The position numbers were made by a program, and so were the translations under genes. From IMG/VR virus record IMGVR_UViG_3300048912_000040, positions 1-22,258 of that record: a stretch of 22,258 nucleotides of DNA. One strand, written 5' to 3'. Shown in pieces: positions 7,957 through 16,616 of the stretch. Origin of the DNA: a virus. The stretch's first letter is position 1. Each line of letters starts with the position of its first letter. Under the pieces are notes generated by a model. The model saw only the letters and a list, made by a program, of their open reading frames with translations. It was not told where the DNA came from and made no database searches.

Positions 7957-8600
7957 GACTCGCCGATCACTTCCTTGACCGGAATGGATTGGATGGAAGT
8001 CAGATCAGCCTCGTTCATGACAACCGGCAACTGATCGGTGTCAAACCTAACCGGAACGTCAAACTGCCCGGTCCATGTCAGGACCGCGGCTGCGGGCGGT
8101 GCCGGCGCGAACGTAACGACGCCGCTGCTGCTGATTGTGTAATCCGTCGCCACAGTCTTGGTGACGCCATCGACCTTGATGACCGGGGCCGGGGTTGAAC
8201 ATACCAGCGTAATTGACCGCACATAGAACAATGATCCCGGCGTACTGAGCAGAATTTGACTCGGGTCATAGGTCTTGACTAATTGAAAGGACGTGGTTGA
8301 TCCATCGCCGTTGCCGAACAGTTCATCGGTGGTGGTGTAGTCGCTCCAATCGCGGAAGCGAAACGGATAGAGACTGCCAAAATGCGCCCGCCATAGCGCC
8401 AGGATCGCCATGAAATCGCCGACCGGATCATCCGAGGACATCAGCCCATAGGAGAGGTCGCCGACCGCGCGGCACTTTGTCCATTGGGCAAACCGCTGCT
8501 CATTACCCGCGATCGCCTCCTGAATAACATTCCTAAAGCTCGGCCCGAATTTTGAGGAACGCTCGATCCGTTCCGGCAATCGATAATCGGGAATGCTCAT
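7953..8600 (-). CDS. Distal tail protein, DUF2460 (GTA ORFG12-like)
   Basis: 215 aa. Expected to form the ring at the end of the tail tube linking it to the hub, as in the Rhodobacter GTA. Seen: PERIERSSKFGPSFRNVIQEAIAGNEQR near the N-terminus, a family signature, followed by RFAQW, GDFMAILALWRAHFGSLYPFRFRDWSDY (69-96), the strongly conserved core in which FRFRDWSDY precedes the next domain, then DGSTTSFQLVKTY and TDYTISSSGVVTFAPAP. Length matches the family. ATGA overlaps with the tape measure and hub genes. Confidence 0.92.
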   Translation of the reverse strand: MSIPDYRLPERIERSSKFGPSFRNVIQEAIAGNEQRFAQWTKCRAVGDLSYGLMSSDDPVGDFMAILALWRAHFGSLYPFRFRDWSDYTTTDELFGNGDGSTTSFQLVKTYDPSQILLSTPGSLFYVRSITLVCSTPAPVIKVDGVTKTVATDYTISSSGVVTFAPAPPAAAVLTWTGQFDVPVRFDTDQLPVVMNEADLTSIQSIPVKEVIGES

Positions 8601-11269
8601 CCACGGCTCACTGCTGAAATTTGTTTAGAACTGGACTGCAACGCCTGATAGACAGTCCGGCCTATTGCGTTGGCATCCTTGGCCGCGCCGCCGTTTACCG
8701 TGATGCCGCCGAGATTGATAACGATATTCTGCGACCCGCCGCCACCGCCGCCACGTTTGGACGGCATCGGGTCGACATAGATCCGCTCGCCGCTCGCTAC
8801 CGGAATGGTCGCAATCATGTTGTCGTTTGCGCTCGGGGATCCAGGCACATCGACATAGCCGCCGTCCGCCATGCCCTGCGAGCGGAAGCCGATATGCGAG
8901 GTGCGCGGATCTTGTGTGTAATAAGGGGATAGTGCCTCTCCCATGGTTTTGTTCAGGCTATCGGTCGAGGTGGATAACTTGTCGAGCGAGCTTGTGAGTT
9001 TATCGGTTGATGTTGTGGTCTTGGTGTTCTTGAAAGGGTCAGGTATGCCATAGGTCGCCATCCAGTAATAATTGTCACGATCCGCTGGACTCATATTGTC
9101 CAATTGAACATTTATCGGTAGGGTGCTGACCGTGTTGCCCTCAATCCCTGACTTGTATTGAAACTCGCCGAAAGCGTTATCGCCACCGGACGTAAAATCC
9201 TCGAACTGCGCATCGTGCGCCGCCGTGAGTGCGTTATACTCTTGTTGAGCGGCAGCATCTAAAGCCGCGGCCGTCTGCTGGGCGGCAGCACCCACACCGA
9301 GCAAGTTTTGTTGCCATTGCAGTGCGGCATCGGCGGCCTTGACGGTATATTGATGCGCGGTTTCTGTCGCCAAAGATGCGGCGGTGGTCGCATCTGCCCC
9401 CGCGTTGATCGCGTTCTTATAGGCGATAGCCGAAGCCGTGGATGCCTCGGTGCCATTTTGGATCGCCTTAGTCATGGCGTCCTGGTCTTTCATCGACTCA
9501 ATTTGTTTTTCGATTTGAGTCGTCGCTTGCGCGTGCGCGGTTGCCAATTGCGCGGCGGCAACTAGCGAAGCCTCGTCCAATGATACGCCTTGCGCCAAAA
9601 GGTTGTTCTGGGTCGCCAGCGCCTGCGCATCCATCTGACCGGCTGCGGTCACTTGCGTCGCAACGTTTAGCTGGTTTTGCAGATTAAGCAGCGTCATGGC
9701 GGTTTGGGTGGTAACGCCGCCATAGACTTCTTTTAATTGTTCGACCGCTTGCGCCTGACGAATAGTGGTGTCTAGCGATTCCTGCTGTAGTGACTTTTGA
9801 TGCTCCAGAACGGCAATCGCCCCGTCATCATAGGCAGGAGCTTTCGCGCCCGGCGTATTTTGAACGGCGTTGAGATTATCTAGCGCCTCTTGCAGCTTGC
9901 CAATGGCATCGATCTGGGGCAACGTCGCATTGACGTTATCAAACGCGGCTTTGGACATCGCATTAAGCTGCGCCATCGCATGCGTCGTATCGAATGCGTT
10001 TACTTTTTCCTGAACGGCTGCAATCTGCTTGTCGAGCGCATCAAGTGCCCCATTGATCTGGCTGGTATCCAAGAACTCGCCACGCGCGTTCTGCCCGGTC
10101 GTGGCGAGCTGGTTGCGCTGCCCTTGAAGCTGCGTCAGTTGATCTTGTGGCGCTTGCGGCGCTGGGCCGCTGGCAATGTTAGAAACGGTGTTTTTGAATT
10201 TTTGCCACGCCGCAGTCAGGCCGCTAACGCTGTTTTCGGCCGTTTTATTAGCTGCGGTCGTCTTATCAATAAAGACCTGCAACGCCGTGGTTTTGTCGCC
10301 GGCATCGATTAGCGTTCGGATATATTCTAGCGTTGAGGCATCTAGCGCCCCATAACGCGCATCCAGCTTCTCAATGCCGGGCAAACCATCCTGAATCGCG
10401 CCAACGAAATCTTTTGTGGCCTCGGTCGCATCCTTGCCAGTCAAGACCGCGTAGCCCTGGATGGCGTCGCCAACGCCTTTCAGGCCGGAAACCGCAACTT
10501 CGCCGGTCTTGGTGAACTCTAGTGCCACGTCGCGCGCCTGAGAGACCGACAAGCCGGTCGCGGTGGCGTTGGCCTTGGTGAAATTGGCGATATCGGTTGC
10601 GGTCGCCCCGGTGCGCGCCCCAATGCCGGTTAGCGCCTGGTCAACCTGCGAACGCGCCTCGCTCCAGCTATTTGCTAAATATAGCGCCGCCGCGGCCGCA
10701 CCGCCGGTCACGCCGATGATGGCTGTCATAGGCGTGATGAAACGCCCCAGCATACCCGTGACTTCGCTGAACGCGCCTGAAAGCCCGCCCTGCCCGCTCG
10801 CCGCATAGGTTAGGTGGTTGATTTGACCCGTTAGCGCCTGGGTTGGTGGGATGCCCATCGCCAGTTGTTCGCCAACCGAACGGAAGGAATGCAGCAACGC
10901 CTGGCCTTGGGTGCTCAAGCGGTCGTGTTCGTCGCCGAGTTCCTTTTCAGCACTTACAGCCGCGCCATAGCGAACCGCCGCCGCCGCTAACACGTCGTTG
11001 GCGCGCTGCTGCAAATCAGGGTTTTGTGCAACCGCCTTGTTGACAGCGTCTTGAACCTTCGCGAACTGCGAAGCCTGCCCCGCTGATGTGTTAAAACGCC
11101 GTTCCAGACCCTGAAACTTGCTATCCAGCGAGGTAGTCGATTTTTCGATACTGTCAGACGCGACCGAAACGCCATCCATCGACTTGCCGAGCTGGTTAAG
11201 CTGGTCCGTCGATTGTTGGACGCCTTGCGTCTCGGCTTGGATAATTAGTTTGTCGGTCGTGTCGGTCAT
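8597..11269 (-). CDS. Tail tape measure protein
   Basis: 890 aa. Sets tail length and is ejected with DNA. Long Ala/Gln/Thr-rich helical stretches run through most of the chain (for example residues 30-130 and 430-640). A hydrophobic segment lies at about 173-199 (GRFITPMTAIIGV then an Ala run), followed by a domain of the lambda gpH type (TGIGARTGATATDIANFTKA and GVGDAIQGYAVLTGKDATEATKDF). The C-terminus has a Gly-rich hinge and NIVINLGGITVNGG, common at tape-measure ends. Helical rise implies a tail on the order of 130 nm, a rough inference. ATGA overlaps at both ends. Confidence 0.94.
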   Translation of the reverse strand: MTDTTDKLIIQAETQGVQQSTDQLNQLGKSMDGVSVASDSIEKSTTSLDSKFQGLERRFNTSAGQASQFAKVQDAVNKAVAQNPDLQQRANDVLAAAAVRYGAAVSAEKELGDEHDRLSTQGQALLHSFRSVGEQLAMGIPPTQALTGQINHLTYAASGQGGLSGAFSEVTGMLGRFITPMTAIIGVTGGAAAAALYLANSWSEARSQVDQALTGIGARTGATATDIANFTKANATATGLSVSQARDVALEFTKTGEVAVSGLKGVGDAIQGYAVLTGKDATEATKDFVGAIQDGLPGIEKLDARYGALDASTLEYIRTLIDAGDKTTALQVFIDKTTAANKTAENSVSGLTAAWQKFKNTVSNIASGPAPQAPQDQLTQLQGQRNQLATTGQNARGEFLDTSQINGALDALDKQIAAVQEKVNAFDTTHAMAQLNAMSKAAFDNVNATLPQIDAIGKLQEALDNLNAVQNTPGAKAPAYDDGAIAVLEHQKSLQQESLDTTIRQAQAVEQLKEVYGGVTTQTAMTLLNLQNQLNVATQVTAAGQMDAQALATQNNLLAQGVSLDEASLVAAAQLATAHAQATTQIEKQIESMKDQDAMTKAIQNGTEASTASAIAYKNAINAGADATTAASLATETAHQYTVKAADAALQWQQNLLGVGAAAQQTAAALDAAAQQEYNALTAAHDAQFEDFTSGGDNAFGEFQYKSGIEGNTVSTLPINVQLDNMSPADRDNYYWMATYGIPDPFKNTKTTTSTDKLTSSLDKLSTSTDSLNKTMGEALSPYYTQDPRTSHIGFRSQGMADGGYVDVPGSPSANDNMIATIPVASGERIYVDPMPSKRGGGGGGSQNIVINLGGITVNGGAAKDANAIGRTVYQALQSSSKQISAVSRG

Positions 11270-11898
11270 CTAAGCGTCACCACGATTGCCGGAACGCGGC
11301 TGTCTCTGTTCTTGCGAGCAATGCGCCCGCCGACAGCGGCTTGATAGGAAAAGCGTATTTTCGCGACGTTGCTAAAGCGCCGGTTAGCATCTTCGGCCGT
11401 CCGCTCATAAATCCGGTTTGGAACTTGAATGACGAAATCCCGCCCTGATTTGGTCTTGCCGATTTCGATCTTGCGGCTATAGGGCTGGACGTTCAGGAAC
11501 GTGTATTCACTTGCAGGCGGCGGCTTTGCCGGGTCGTCGCACTCGGCGCCATCGGCATAGAGCGTATGGCTTCGTTGGTAGGCCCCGCTCAATATAGGCG
11601 AACGCGCCACAAGCGTTGAATAGATCCATAGCAGCGCATCGCCAACGAGCGACCATTCGGCAATGATGGTACCGCGATCAGGATTGACGCTTTCCAGCGG
11701 TGCGCCTTCGCGCCCATCTACGGTAACGGTCTTTGGCGGTACTGTGCCTATGACCCTTGCGTTCTGGGCATCCGCTGCGGCGATCTCTTGCCGCGCAAAA
11801 GCGGCGACCCGTTCGCTTCGCGCTTGCGGTGATAATCGACCATCAACAACCAGCTTGATGGTCCGTTCAAATGGCGTGATTTTAACCTTTACCGCCAT
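11266..11898 (-). CDS. HK97 gp10-like neck / tail completion protein candidate
   Basis: 210 aa, starting inside the end of the chaperone extension at an eight-A run. The centre reads LWIYSTLVARSPILSGAYQRSHTLYADG (90-117), close to the gp10-like pattern in which a helix precedes RSPVxTGxxxxS, and FLNVQPYSRKIEIGK (134-148) resembles its N-x-xPYAxxIExG strand. The N-terminal 70 residues are charged and less typical. gp10-like proteins are normally encoded between head-closure and terminator genes; here it lies between chaperone and tape measure, the notable oddity. ATGA overlap with the tape measure. Could instead be a tail-specific minor protein. Confidence 0.62.
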   Translation of the reverse strand: MAVKVKITPFERTIKLVVDGRLSPQARSERVAAFARQEIAAADAQNARVIGTVPPKTVTVDGREGAPLESVNPDRGTIIAEWSLVGDALLWIYSTLVARSPILSGAYQRSHTLYADGAECDDPAKPPPASEYTFLNVQPYSRKIEIGKTKSGRDFVIQVPNRIYERTAEDANRRFSNVAKIRFSYQAAVGGRIARKNRDSRVPAIVVTLR

Positions 11899-12283
11899 TT
11901 TTTTTGTTTAATGCCTCATTCAAAATGCCCGCGCGGAGCGACCCTAGTTTGATGATGGCTATCGCTTCGCGTGGCTCGAGCACGTTTTCAGTCAACCGGG
12001 ACCACGCCGCCAAGCACTCCCAGGTTATGACCGGATGCGACCAGCCGTTGCCCTGAATGCCTTGGATGATCTCGCAAAATGAAGCCCAGATATAGGCTAG
12101 AGGTTCGGGAAATTCTGGCGGAATGTCCTCATCAGGGTCAATTTGCAGCTTGATGCCGAGCACGGCAAACTGCCGGGCGGCAGATTGCTTATGTTCGCCC
12201 TCGGTAGCGCCGTCGCTTAGGCGGCGGCTTCGCTTGGTGCTCCACTCTGCGAAGGCGTAGAGCTTTTCGCAGAGCGTTGCGAA
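11882..12283 (-). CDS. gpT-like extension of the tail chaperone, made by -1 frameshift
   Basis: 133 codons in the -1 frame, joined to the first 133 residues of the gpG-like protein to give a predicted 266-aa fusion. It reads FATLCEKLYAFAEW, then a linker, then LGIKLQIDPDEDIPPEFPEPLAYIWASF, a helical WECLAAWSRLTENVLEPREA segment, and ends KKNGGKG. In lambda the T domain binds tail-tube subunits and gathers them on the tape measure. The only independent start would be a GTG at 12163 without a convincing SD, which would drop 40 protein-like codons. It overlaps the next gene by 17 nt. Confidence 0.82.
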   Translation of the reverse strand, partial: FATLCEKLYAFAEWSTKRSRRLSDGATEGEHKQSAARQFAVLGIKLQIDPDEDIPPEFPEPLAYIWASFCEIIQGIQGNGWSHPVITWECLAAWSRLTENVLEPREAIAIIKLGSLRAGILNEALNKKNGGKG

Positions 12284-12681
12284 AAATTTCCGTTATCGGT
12301 CGCCCTGATCCAGACTTGCAAAAACCAGTTGGTGGCAGGCAACGAATAGAACTCTTTGGCGTTATCTACCGTGCAAGGGACGGCGATCTCTTCTGAAGTA
12401 TCAGGATCGACAAGATACCAGCCGACAGTTAACGCCGCACATTTGGCTATGTTGCGCTCTAACGGATCAGCAGGGGCATCTGTTACGCCTTTGCGCGCTC
12501 TCTCGATCGCGGCGGCGCGTTCTTCCTTGTCGAACTTGCGTCCGGCAGCGCCATCGGCGGCGCGGACCTCGACATAAGCCTCTTTGCCGTCATTATCTTG
12601 GATGGCCGAACCTGAAACCGGGTCGATCAGAACAACCCGGAACGGCGTATCGTTCGCAGCGAGCGAACCAAACTTTCCCAT
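12217..12681 (-). CDS. Tail assembly chaperone, gpG-like (unshifted product)
   Basis: 154 aa, ATG with SD AAAGGTG close upstream. Expected to coat the tape measure during tail assembly, like lambda gpG. Seen: GKFGSLAANDTPFRVVLIDPVSG beta start, a charged helix (EERAAAIERARKG), AKCAALTVGWYLV, and FYSLPATNWFLQVWIRA near residue 128. After residue 133 the zero frame turns into low-complexity SQRSAKSSTPSQSG, as expected of a tail beyond a frameshift site. Identification comes from size, position between tube and tape measure, and the frameshift cassette. Confidence 0.85.
   Translation of the reverse strand: MGKFGSLAANDTPFRVVLIDPVSGSAIQDNDGKEAYVEVRAADGAAGRKFDKEERAAAIERARKGVTDAPADPLERNIAKCAALTVGWYLVDPDTSEEIAVPCTVDNAKEFYSLPATNWFLQVWIRATDNGNFSQRSAKSSTPSQSGAPSEAAA
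12243..12289 (-). promoter_or_regulatory. Programmed -1 ribosomal frameshift signal (gpG to gpGT)
   Basis: The slippery heptamer A AAT TTT (12289 down to 12283) lies in the gpG frame as GGA AAT TTT TCG. After a 6-nt spacer (TCGCAA) comes an 11-bp stem: CGCTCTGCGAA (12276-12266) with TTCGCAGAGTG (12253-12243), one G-U pair, 12-nt loop. The -1 frame has a TAA at 12295-12293, just upstream, and is then open to 11882. Slip site, spacing and stem match the standard -1 frameshift layout; the heptamer type resembles the RSV A AAU UUA site. All elements are seen; efficiency is unknown. Confidence 0.88.
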
Positions 12682-12801: not shown

Positions 12802-14043
12802 TTAGGTGGCTTCGGTATCGCAGACACGAATGGTCGTTGCTTCAACACCGGGGGTCGTCCCGCCATAGGCCAGCGCTTGGAACGGGAGGGTGATTATCTG
12901 GCCCTGTTCGCCGGTCACACCCACCGCCGCGTCACCAAGTTTAATGCGCGGCAGATAGATGGTGTTGGCAGGCGAGTTCACGGCTGATGTCGTGGTCATG
13001 TAGCAGAGCAAGTCGATTTCAGTTTCGTTCAGGAAGTCGTCAATCAGCGTGCCGCCGTCGAGCAGAGCCGTCATCTGGCCCGTTACGTTGGCGCGGCCGA
13101 TGAAGACTTCCGGTGTGAAGTTCTGGCCCACAACAGCGTTCGTTGATGGGTTGTTGTTCAGGTCGATACTTAGACTCGTCACAACGCCGACCGTCGAACC
13201 GCCGACGCGGAGCAATCCGTTCACCGCCGTGAACAGCCCGTTTGTATTTGCGGAAGTCGGGCTTGTGAAGAACGGCGAAGACGCGCCCGAGCCCGTTTCC
13301 ATGTCGCGGCCCATGACGTTGACATCAAAGGTCGCCATGCCCGTGGCGGGAAGAGACCATTTCACGCCACCGATGCGGCATTCCGTGAACAGATTGTGGT
13401 AATCAAGCGTCGTATAGTAGTGTTCGAAGCCGAACTTGCGGTAAACGTGACCCGTTGACGGCACCATCACGTTTTTGCCGACGGTGGCGACCGTGAACGC
13501 CGTGTCAGCCGCTTCCGTGGTCGGGTTCGGGAACACCGCTAGAATGCGGTTTGAACCTGAAAAACCAGTGATAACGAAATTTGTTGCGTTGTTCGCGCTG
13601 GTCGCAAGACTCGAAAATCGGATGATGTCACCGACCCGCAAGCCGAGTGCAACCGGGTCACCGCCGCCAAAGGTGATGGTTCCAGACGCATCGAGCGCAG
13701 CGCTGGTCAGGTCGCTTTCGGTCAGCGAAACCGTGCTGGCCTTCGTGCCCAACATCGCCGCTTCGATGAAATCGAAGTAAGTACCCGGCGAGTATTCGCC
13801 ATTGATGCCGCCTGTTACGCTGCGGCCACCATGCCGGAAGTCGGCAATCTGGTGATCCGCGCGAATTTCATTCGACTGATAGGTTTGCTTGGCAAGTTTC
13901 AGCGTGGAAGACACGCGGCGCAGGATTTGCGCGCTGCCCACACCAAGGTCGCTGGAAGAAACGGCTTCCGCGTTCGAGGTCATGGCCCCAGAGGCATAAG
14001 CCTTGTATGCAATGCGTACCGACGTGCCTTGTTCGAGGCTCAT
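12802..14043 (-). CDS. Major tail tube protein
   Basis: 413 aa. Polymerises into the tail tube. Seen: opening SLEQGTSVRIAYKAYASGAM, the segment LRRVSSTLKLAKQTYQSNEIR, GGRSVTGGINGEYSPGTYFDFIEAAMLG (characteristic of the phage tail-tube family in which a SxSG/xGxxxGE-like strand precedes a helix), a middle SGNRILAVFPNPTTEAADTAFTVA, and two later tube-domain-like parts. It is longer than the classic tubes (about 150-300 aa), so it probably has an inserted or extra beta domain. It sits before the frameshifted chaperone pair, the canonical order. Strong SD, separate cistron, hairpins on both sides. Confidence 0.85.
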   Translation of the reverse strand: MSLEQGTSVRIAYKAYASGAMTSNAEAVSSSDLGVGSAQILRRVSSTLKLAKQTYQSNEIRADHQIADFRHGGRSVTGGINGEYSPGTYFDFIEAAMLGTKASTVSLTESDLTSAALDASGTITFGGGDPVALGLRVGDIIRFSSLATSANNATNFVITGFSGSNRILAVFPNPTTEAADTAFTVATVGKNVMVPSTGHVYRKFGFEHYYTTLDYHNLFTECRIGGVKWSLPATGMATFDVNVMGRDMETGSGASSPFFTSPTSANTNGLFTAVNGLLRVGGSTVGVVTSLSIDLNNNPSTNAVVGQNFTPEVFIGRANVTGQMTALLDGGTLIDDFLNETEIDLLCYMTTTSAVNSPANTIYLPRIKLGDAAVGVTGEQGQIITLPFQALAYGGTTPGVEATTIRVCDTEAT

Positions 14044-14596: not shown

Positions 14597-15652
14597 TCAT
14601 GCGAGCGTGATCCCGTAATAGGTCGCGATGTTTTGTCTAATCGCAGTCCTGTCAGATGAGGACAGCACCGCAGGGAATATATAAAATTCAAGAATTTGCC
14701 CCTGCAACCCAAACCCGCCAGATGATGGATCGTCACATCCCAGAACCAAGGGAAGATTTATAGCGCCCACATTGCCATCGCCGTAGATGTAGTCGGAATT
14801 TTTTGTTAGGACCGCGCCGTTAGCTTTGAGGTCAGCCGAGGAGTCGTTCCAAGCCGTGTCGAACAGGTAATAAGTCCCAGCGTCCGGGCTTAGTGTGTAT
14901 CGCCCCCCATTGCCTGAGTTAAACGACTCGCCGTCAGCGCCAGCCTCCAAACCGATGCCACTCCCAAGAAATTCCAGCCAGAGATCGGGGCCATCTGGGA
15001 ATCCGATATCCTGCCCATTTATGCCTGCTATGCGGCCGCCGCCGCTTGCTACCGTTTCCACTTTCGCAAGAGCAAAAATCGTGAATGCGCTATTGGGTAG
15101 CGATATATTATTAGTCACCAAAAACAACGAACCATCAAATGAAAGCCCCGGCTTCCCGTTGGATGTCGAAGCCACCCAAGCTGGCTGGGACAGTGCGGTT
15201 GATTGGGATGCATCAAGCCCATTTCCGCTTTGATCGTTCCAGATAGCAACAAAAGGATTGGCACCGCCAAGGAATGTATTTATGCCGCTAATGTCGAGAT
15301 CGCCTGTTAACGTGTCACTCGAAAAACTCTGCTCGGCATCATCGCTATCTCGCCTGATTGTAAGCACAGGGGAGCCAGCCATAGCAGACGAGAGAGCCCG
15401 CCCACCAAACGCGGCGGCGGCCGTTACCGTTGTTAAATCCAGCGGACCTACATAGTCCCCCCCACCACCGCCGCCGCCACCCGACGAAACGTTGACCACT
15501 CCTGAATTATTCCAAAGCTGCCCCCCCAAACCTGGATCAGCGGTCGGAAGCGCAGCAATTATTTTTGCCCCGCTTTCAACGACGATCTGACCGCCCGAGG
15601 CGATAACCAGCACGTCGCCGTCGCTCATGTAAATTGTGGTTTGATTTGTCAT
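14597..15652 (-). CDS. Lectin-like protein with GH54/concanavalin-type domain and capsid-region docking module
   Basis: 351 aa. Residues 11-58 repeat the module of the 62-aa protein encoded after the capsid gene. A linker of eight glycines (58-65) follows, then a beta-sandwich candidate from about 70 to 351. That part carries SPVLTIRRDSDDAEQSF (93-110) and FVAIWNDQSGNGLDASQ (134-150), close to the N-terminal signature of GH54 alpha-L-arabinofuranosidase B domains (RxSDD then YDQSGNGNHxTQ), and later features of concanavalin/LamG folds. Catalytic residues were not verified, so binding is likelier than hydrolysis. It sits among head-neck genes (ATGA with the head-closure gene), not with tail fibres, which suggests display on the head or neck. 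Could alternatively be a tail-side adhesin encoded out of order. Confidence 0.75.
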   Translation of the reverse strand: MTNQTTIYMSDGDVLVIASGGQIVVESGAKIIAALPTADPGLGGQLWNNSGVVNVSSGGGGGGGGDYVGPLDLTTVTAAAAFGGRALSSAMAGSPVLTIRRDSDDAEQSFSSDTLTGDLDISGINTFLGGANPFVAIWNDQSGNGLDASQSTALSQPAWVASTSNGKPGLSFDGSLFLVTNNISLPNSAFTIFALAKVETVASGGGRIAGINGQDIGFPDGPDLWLEFLGSGIGLEAGADGESFNSGNGGRYTLSPDAGTYYLFDTAWNDSSADLKANGAVLTKNSDYIYGDGNVGAINLPLVLGCDDPSSGGFGLQGQILEFYIFPAVLSSSDRTAIRQNIATYYGITLA

Positions 15653-15996
15653 CCGCTAACCTGAATATCTAGAGCGATCAGCGTCCCGCCGATTCGGCGC
15701 GTGTTGTCGTCAACCGACTTTATCGCCAGTTCCCGGCCGCGAACGACAAGTTTGTCGTTGGTCGTGATCGGCAATAGCGAGGAAACATCTTCCGCCATCG
15801 CAATTACCCTGCGATCACCCTGCACAATTGAGCCAACGAGCTCGCTCGGCTTGTAGCCCATGACGCGGGCTTTTGCAGTCACGTCAGTCTTTGGCCGCGG
15901 CGTGCCAGATCCGGTGAAGCGGCGGAAAACAACATCCTCGCCCACTTCATCAATCATTGCGCGATGGCTGGCGTGCAGATCGATCAGCGTAGTCAT
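15649..15996 (-). CDS. Head-closure / head-tail joining protein (stopper candidate)
   Basis: 115 aa from the ATG at 15996, chosen because it makes an ATGA overlap with the connector stop; an alternative start lies four codons upstream. Seen: DEVGEDVVFRRFTGSG, a middle KARVMGYKPSELVGSIVQGDRR, and the C-terminal beta segment TNDKLVVRGRELAIKSVDD. This size and pattern (small beta-barrel, GEDVVFRR motif near the N-terminus) fit head-closure or joining proteins encoded after gp6-type connectors. Assignment rests on pattern and position. ATGA overlap with the next gene. Confidence 0.75.
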   Translation of the reverse strand: MTTLIDLHASHRAMIDEVGEDVVFRRFTGSGTPRPKTDVTAKARVMGYKPSELVGSIVQGDRRVIAMAEDVSSLLPITTNDKLVVRGRELAIKSVDDNTRRIGGTLIALDIQVSG

Positions 15997-16616
15997 GCCA
16001 ACGCCCAACTGCGGAAGTTTTCCAGCAGGCTAGCGACGGTATCGTTCAATGATTTATCCAGCGCCCCGGTGGCCTCTATCTCAACAGAGCCGACACCTTC
16101 GACAACCCTCTTCCTTACCATCTGGCTCGGCCCGCCGAACACAAACAAGCGGCCGATGCGCAGAAGCATGGCGGACACAAGTTCGGACGGGACGGTCGCA
16201 TACCCGGCCACGGCAATAATCGTAATGCGCGAACCGACCTGCGTCGTGGGCCAAACTTGGTTGTATTTGAGGACGATTGACGGGGCGAGGCCCTCTAAGC
16301 GGGCTTCATACACCGCCGCATCAAGCGCCTGCGTAACACCGTCAACGTCAACGTATGAAATCGATGTGACGGACTGGATCGGAGAAACCGGAAGTCGCTT
16401 GAATTCGGAAAAGCTATCGCACTTCATAGACACGGTTTGCGTGACGATCTTGATGTCGCAATAGCGCTCGACAAAGCCGCGCTCTGCCAGGATCATGCGT
16501 GTAATCATGTCGTCATAGCTGGTGTCAGCCGTCGCAATCCCGCACTGCTGCTTGACCTGCGCCGCAGTCACCGGCTCAGACGCGGGCGCTACCGTAACAG
16601 TCGCGGGATACCACAT
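15993..16616 (-). CDS. Head-tail connector, HK97 gp6-like
   Basis: 207 aa. Forms the adaptor ring below the portal. Seen: the opening VTVAPASEPVTAAQVKQQCGI, then a helix (YDDMITRMILAERGFVERYCDI) and the beta segment LPVSPIQSVTSISYVDVDG, a well-known signature of the Phage_gp6-like connector family. The C-terminal part VPSELVSAMLLRIGRLFVFGG is the expected second helical segment. Length is somewhat above minimal family members. Coupled to its neighbours by TAATG upstream and ATGA downstream. Confidence 0.87.
   Translation of the reverse strand: MWYPATVTVAPASEPVTAAQVKQQCGIATADTSYDDMITRMILAERGFVERYCDIKIVTQTVSMKCDSFSEFKRLPVSPIQSVTSISYVDVDGVTQALDAAVYEARLEGLAPSIVLKYNQVWPTTQVGSRITIIAVAGYATVPSELVSAMLLRIGRLFVFGGPSQMVRKRVVEGVGSVEIEATGALDKSLNDTVASLLENFRSWALA

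Follow-up and report, generated by a model that had tools for sequence, protein, structure and literature searches.

In phage lambda, the tail chaperone gene lies between those of the tail tube and the tape measure, gives a short product and a -1 fusion, and carries in the overlap of its two frames the gpG/gpGT slip site, G GGA AAG. The roles of gpG and gpGT in this phage have been described (PMC5009743, in excerpt). For the gp12/gp13 chaperones of Acinetobacter phage Loki, a -1 frameshift has been proposed at AAAAAAC, a site that adjoins a stop codon, and another gene stands there between the chaperones and the tape measure (PMC5313236, in excerpt). According to the excerpted part of the PRFect study, phage chaperones differ widely in their slip motifs, and annotation in the phage database of that study is uneven (PMC10885494).

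We analysed a virus record of 22,258 bases from IMG/VR, called here the window; all of its features given below lie on the minus strand. It carries a siphovirus-like tail module which contains a terminase, a portal, a protease, a capsid protein, head-tail connectors, a tail tube, a pair of chaperone frames, a 210-aa gene, a tape measure, and tail-tip proteins. A second record, IMGVR_UViG_3300048911_000137 (L002; 41,465 bases), represents the window's own phage, 800 bases being identical with 0 differences. The tail tube gene (12802-14043; PF18906, Phage_tube_2) is directly followed by a gpG-like chaperone gene encoding 154 aa (12217-12681). After the chaperone frames come the 210-aa gene (11266-11898; PHROG 16336), which overlaps the end of the second frame, and the tape measure gene (8597-11269; PF06791, TMP_2, and PHROG 24). 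The chaperone thus sits between Phage_tube_2 and TMP_2, as expected for the lambda gpG/gpGT type, with one 210-aa gene intervening. Elsewhere in the window, a 351-aa gene (14597-15652), located between the head closure gene (15649-16008) and a 152-aa gene that adjoins the tail tube gene, matched no Pfam family above the cut-off, and a holin of the gene-transfer-agent type (PF11351) is found at 2059-2451.

The locus therefore resembles that of lambda in its gene position, in having a short frame and a -1 extension, and in the slippery heptamer of the overlap. It differs from lambda by its heptamer (A AAT TTT in place of G GGA AAG), by a second domain belonging to PF23812, by a predicted downstream stem, and by the 210-aa gene. 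It shares with Loki the intervening gene and the proposed -1 frameshift, whereas the Loki site abuts a stop codon, unlike A AAT TTT in the window. We conclude that translation of the tail chaperone gene very probably involves programmed -1 frameshifting of the lambda gpG/gpGT type, a device known from many phages.

The chaperone gene and its slip site

The heptamer AAATTTT (12289-12283) is in phase with the gpG frame, where it is read GGA AAT TTT TCG, and the gpG stop, TAA, follows at 12219-12217. From the heptamer, the -1 frame stays open until its stop at 11884-11882, i.e., over 135 codons, of which 111 lie beyond the gpG stop, and the fusion of both frames would measure 266 aa. An earlier note, made from the letters of the window alone, had proposed a frameshift cassette at this place; its heptamer, its spacer, its stem and loop, and its 266-aa fusion were all recovered when we rechecked the letters. 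It had also placed the last -1 stop just upstream of the heptamer, which is correct, although this TAA (12293-12295) lies 3 nt from the heptamer and not 4. Such an arrangement is unique in the window. Indeed, among the 17 in-frame heptamers of the X_XXY_YYZ form (6624 codons, 21 genes), only A AAT TTT at 12289-12283 opens a -1 frame that overruns its gene by far, the next best reaching 10 codons past the stop.

At this site, most ribosomes would follow the gpG frame to its stop and produce the 154-aa chaperone. In a minority of them, the tRNA-Asn on AAU and the tRNA-Phe on UUU would slip back by one base and re-pair with AAA and UUU, and reading would continue in the -1 frame, so that a helical TAC_18 domain is added and gpGT, a fusion of 266 aa, results. 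If the two products act as they do in lambda, the tape measure protein would be coated by gpG, and the less abundant gpGT would bring in the tail tube protein.

The gpG part itself matches no family in Pfam and no sequence in the PDB. Its AlphaFold model (pLDDT 79.7) is well ordered up to about residue 130 and falls below 50 for residues 136-154, so the predicted fold ends at the slip site (N132-F133), and the description of the gpG tail beyond this point as low-complexity fits. With this model, Foldseek retrieved nothing from the PDB at E 0.001 or better. When the 373 chains that Foldseek ranked highest were aligned in structure, the best was Bacillus YqbN (Z 5.0, 97 residues, 3.7 A), the second the HK97 tail chaperone (Z 4.2, 95 residues, 5.3 A), and the third, which is also the last at Z of 2 or above, a Vibrio PICI protein (Z 3.0). 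HK97 gp13 and YqbN (2OB9, 3KLU), to which the sequence search of the PDB found no similarity, are thus the closest solved folds to the predicted gpG. Among viral models (BFVD), 12 matches reach E 0.001; one of them, at E 3.6e-5, bears the name "Tape-measure chaperone" and comes from Caulobacter phage Sansa, for which both a short (161) and a long (310) version were matched. The Loki chaperone is a weak structural match (E 0.038). The modelled gpG protein can hence be assigned a chaperone fold, at modest Z.

Conservation of the junction and reachability of the second frame

A profile search with gpG retrieved 18 viral loci, that of the window's own phage (L002) among them, whose gpG identity to the window is as low as 31%; four of these loci (L038-L041) sit on the contigs of L007, L008, L033, and L009, where their junctions were read. 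Each of the 18 has A AAT TTT, in phase with gpG. The sole match with a full genome, a contig of a Hyphomicrobiales MAG (L011), has the same heptamer in the same phase, so that the comparative alignment proposed in the earlier note does reveal a conserved slip site. In a nucleotide alignment of 19 rows, the first six bases of the heptamer are invariant; since these rows were picked for carrying A AAT TTY, this invariance is partly a matter of selection, from which the count of 18/18 is free. One more candidate relative, L012, was rejected as a partial chance match in which the gene pair is absent, and a tblastn search of phages with the gpG of the window gave no match.

This conservation bears on the possibility that we are looking at a sequencing error or at a dead, frame-broken chaperone gene. 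A single-base break of the frame can look alike. However, no gpG relative that was found has the break at any other base; these relatives come from unrelated viral contigs as well as from a bacterial genome contig, and their heptamer is invariant. Because of this conservation of the junction, we consider an error or a dead gene as virtually refuted.

In the 16 core loci, the heptamer is invariant, and AAT TTT is preceded by A in every one. Outside the heptamer, the same loci use AAT for 39 of 94 Asn codons and TTT for 34 of 109 Phe codons, and A occupies 12% of third positions (the gpG part of this count comes from 9/16 loci and, the loci being related, we claim no probability from it). In a slip of two tRNAs, the AAA codon of the -1 frame is never decoded, and its constancy thus points to the RNA. 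A slippage of the RNA polymerase on the A/T run could also lead to the longer product, by transcriptional realignment. The slip site does consist of A and T only, and six T in a row are found in L042 and L044. Nevertheless, transcriptional slippage as a rule needs runs of about 8 or more; with five T in the window and four in 13 of the 16 core loci, the run is short for this mechanism, and the heptamer keeps the codon phase that a slip of two tRNAs requires. We therefore regard polymerase slippage as extremely improbable. In another locus, L021 (minus strand, 1887-1878), the gpG stop TAG comes immediately after A AAT TTC, which implies that the gpG tail past the site is dispensable in L021.

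The T domain of the -1 frame (11882-12289) belongs to PF23812, Phage_TAC_18 (31.1 bits for a curated cut-off of 27), a family that all 20 T domains of our alignment A6 match at E 0.1 or better. Its AlphaFold model is made entirely of helices (pLDDT 87.9); Foldseek found no credible counterpart to it in the PDB, none reaching E 0.001, and the sequence of the domain gave one match of chance level among PDB sequences. In the record of Caulobacter phage DMCA (L017/L019), the T domain occurs twice (486-857 and 51149-51520), probably through a terminal repeat.

The first ATG or GTG of the -1 frame is at codon 42 in the window. A separate second gene, perhaps translationally coupled to the first, could start at this GTG (12163) and give 93 aa without any frameshift; indeed, such an ORF appears in the mechanical ORF list, and in most public records of relatives the second ORF is annotated on its own, with a later start. 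On the other hand, the approximately 41 codons that lie between the heptamer and GTG 12163 are conserved at the protein level, and the start of codon 42 is absent in 12 other A AAT TTY loci, where the first ATG or GTG comes at codon 45-115. Moreover, 15 of the 16 core loci present no ATG, GTG, or TTG in the first 36 codons of the -1 frame. An independent translation of the second frame is thus very improbable, and the intact separate start which, according to the earlier note, would have spoken against a frameshift was not found near the junction in relatives. The protein conservation of the T domain begins precisely at the heptamer, and in many loci a -1 stop is found within 18 nt upstream of it. 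Taken together, the lack of an early start, the conservation from the heptamer onward, and these upstream stops indicate that the T frame can be reached from gpG alone, so that it would be translated only as part of the gpGT fusion. With its slip site conserved and its second gene devoid of a start near the junction, the frameshift first proposed for this gene is well borne out by the comparison.

Signals around the slip site

Downstream of the heptamer, a 6-nt spacer, TCGCAA (12277-12282), is followed by a stem of 11 bp, one of them G-U, whose 5' arm (12266-12276) and 3' arm (12243-12253) enclose a loop of 12 nt. This stem-loop probably slows the ribosome over the slip site. The 134 nt downstream of the heptamer fold with -61 kcal/mol (z -4.10), as good a value being reached by 0 of 200 shuffles, and the 55 nt downstream with z -3.28. 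At 8 of the 11 pairs, at least one double change is observed among the relatives, for instance a G-C pair of the window that becomes A-U in L009. Over 19 sequences, 72.2% of the 209 cells are paired in the register of the stem, versus 26.8-43.1% when it is slid by 1-3 bases, a comparison which is biased in favour of the stem because the window supplied the register. RNAalifold finds in the same number of sequences a weak consensus stem of 5 pairs (-0.04 kcal/mol), and, of 21 A AAT TTY loci, only 7 reach a z of -2 or lower downstream of the heptamer and two have a positive z. Our reading is that the stimulatory stem is likely real in the window and in its near relatives L007, L009, L033, L056, and L036, and that it would be weaker or different farther out.

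A stem at 5-8 nt from the slip site is one feature of a dnaX-type signal, and the window presents it (11 bp after 6 nt). The other feature, an upstream Shine-Dalgarno sequence, is not conserved among the core loci. It had been suggested that CAGGG (12303-12307) may act as an internal stimulator of this kind, a suggestion that the relatives do not sustain: among the 16 core loci, AGGG at about 13 nt upstream is found only in the window. Purine stretches exist at the same distance in L042 (GAGG) and L044 (GGGG), and GAGG adjoins the heptamer in L036; the remaining 12 core loci contain no such stretch. CAGGG probably has no functional role.

A pseudoknot between CGCC in the loop and a later GGCG had been proposed as well. 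Full pairing does occur in several core loci, namely in 7/16 (window included) with the nearer partner, at offset 78, and in 5/16 with the farther one, at offset 90. Of the close relatives, L007 does not form it with the nearer partner, nor L056 with either, and the pseudoknot is at most a candidate structure. Since the nearer GGCG is located inside the codons of a conserved DGA protein motif, the pairing alone is no evidence of a pseudoknot.

Slip-site types in the PF23812 chaperones

The T domain allowed us to compare slip sites beyond the gpG relatives. Phage records were sampled (14 taken from 40 among the matches listed, of 90). The 210-aa protein led to two further phages, EBPR siphovirus 3 (L014) and Azospirillum phage Cd (L015). 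Left out of the tree were duplicates or near-duplicates (L008, L058, L060, L063, L072, L077), two truncated T domains (L061, L062), two loci where no partner frame was seen at the junction (L027, L029), and Pseudomonas phage PaMx28 (L065). In the latter, one T fewer in the slip run (at 1498) results in a +1 frame relation, which is either a sequencing error or a real -2/+1 site.

Among the 47 T-domain rows retained, A AAT TTY is the commonest type (20), followed by T TTT TTN (14), A AAA AAC (5), and G GGA AAC (3); the others are U_UUU without a full heptamer (3), A_AAG (1), and a +1 relation (1). The U_UUU assignments, and that of A_AAG to Serbin (L066), were made by eye. The heptamer of the window, described earlier as an uncommon choice for phage tail genes, is therefore uncommon in a general sense only. 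A search of the open-access literature returned no case of AAAUUUU/AAATTTT as a tail-chaperone slip site, a paper on a Wolbachia hydrolase having surfaced.

On the tree, the 7 types require 12 changes (minimum 6, shuffled mean 23.6), a number that stays the same when the first three residues, i.e., those of the slip site, are removed; how many exchanges took place exactly is uncertain, a number of the deep branches being long or weak. The clade that holds the window is supported and consists of 15 rows (14 in a second tree), all with A AAT TTY. From this distribution, we give an even chance to the following scenario: in the PF23812 family, which is spread over phages of alphaproteobacteria and others, the frameshift would be kept while its signal is repeatedly replaced, mostly around a shared slip of tRNA-Phe on U UUY. 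The signals concerned would be A AAU UUY, U UUU UUN, U_UUU by itself, A AAA AAC and G GGA AAC, which often adjoin the stop codon, possibly A_AAG, and the +1 site UUU C of L024. An E. coli survey, as far as its excerpt extends, found that UUN and AAN codons shift best, that homogeneous ones such as UUY beat others, that U_UU.C and U_UU.U are among the best tetramers, and that UUY is shifty in the A site (PMC4066793). A U UUY at the A site fits this excerpted survey.

Other arrangements were observed in the family. In L024 (about 1378-1403), the TAC_18 frame is +1 relative to the gpG frame (ACG TTT C TCC); the tRNA-Phe could slip forward there from UUU to UUC, and a sequence error is also possible. 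In distant TAC_18 loci of alphaproteobacterial genomes (L048, L049, L051, L052, L031, L032), A AAA AAC or G GGA AAC is found with the gpG stop UGA abutting the heptamer.

In Bradyrhizobium phage ppBdUSDA122-1 (OP596612), a TAC_18 domain 27% identical to that of the window is preceded by A AAT TTT, also in the same phase; the record describes the first gene as an ABC transporter and marks no frameshift. At L013, the gpG gene goes under the name of a branched-chain amino acid ABC transporter. A joined chaperone gene is absent from all 13 annotated public regions inspected (L013, L016, L064-L067, L069, L070, L072-L076), and the public records of relatives thus miss the gpGT fusion.

In conclusion, there is a high probability, judging from the comparative evidence, that the frameshift of the window is real and ordinary in kind, a good and conserved case with a less usual heptamer. 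It provides a well-supported frameshift signal, A AAU UUU, for phages of alphaproteobacteria. The most interesting extra lies in how often the slip site was exchanged in the PF23812 chaperone family, which offers a comparative slip-site series in one gene. If the replacement of signals is true, this family would constitute a natural series for asking what limits a fixed ratio of the proteins sets on which slip signal is used.
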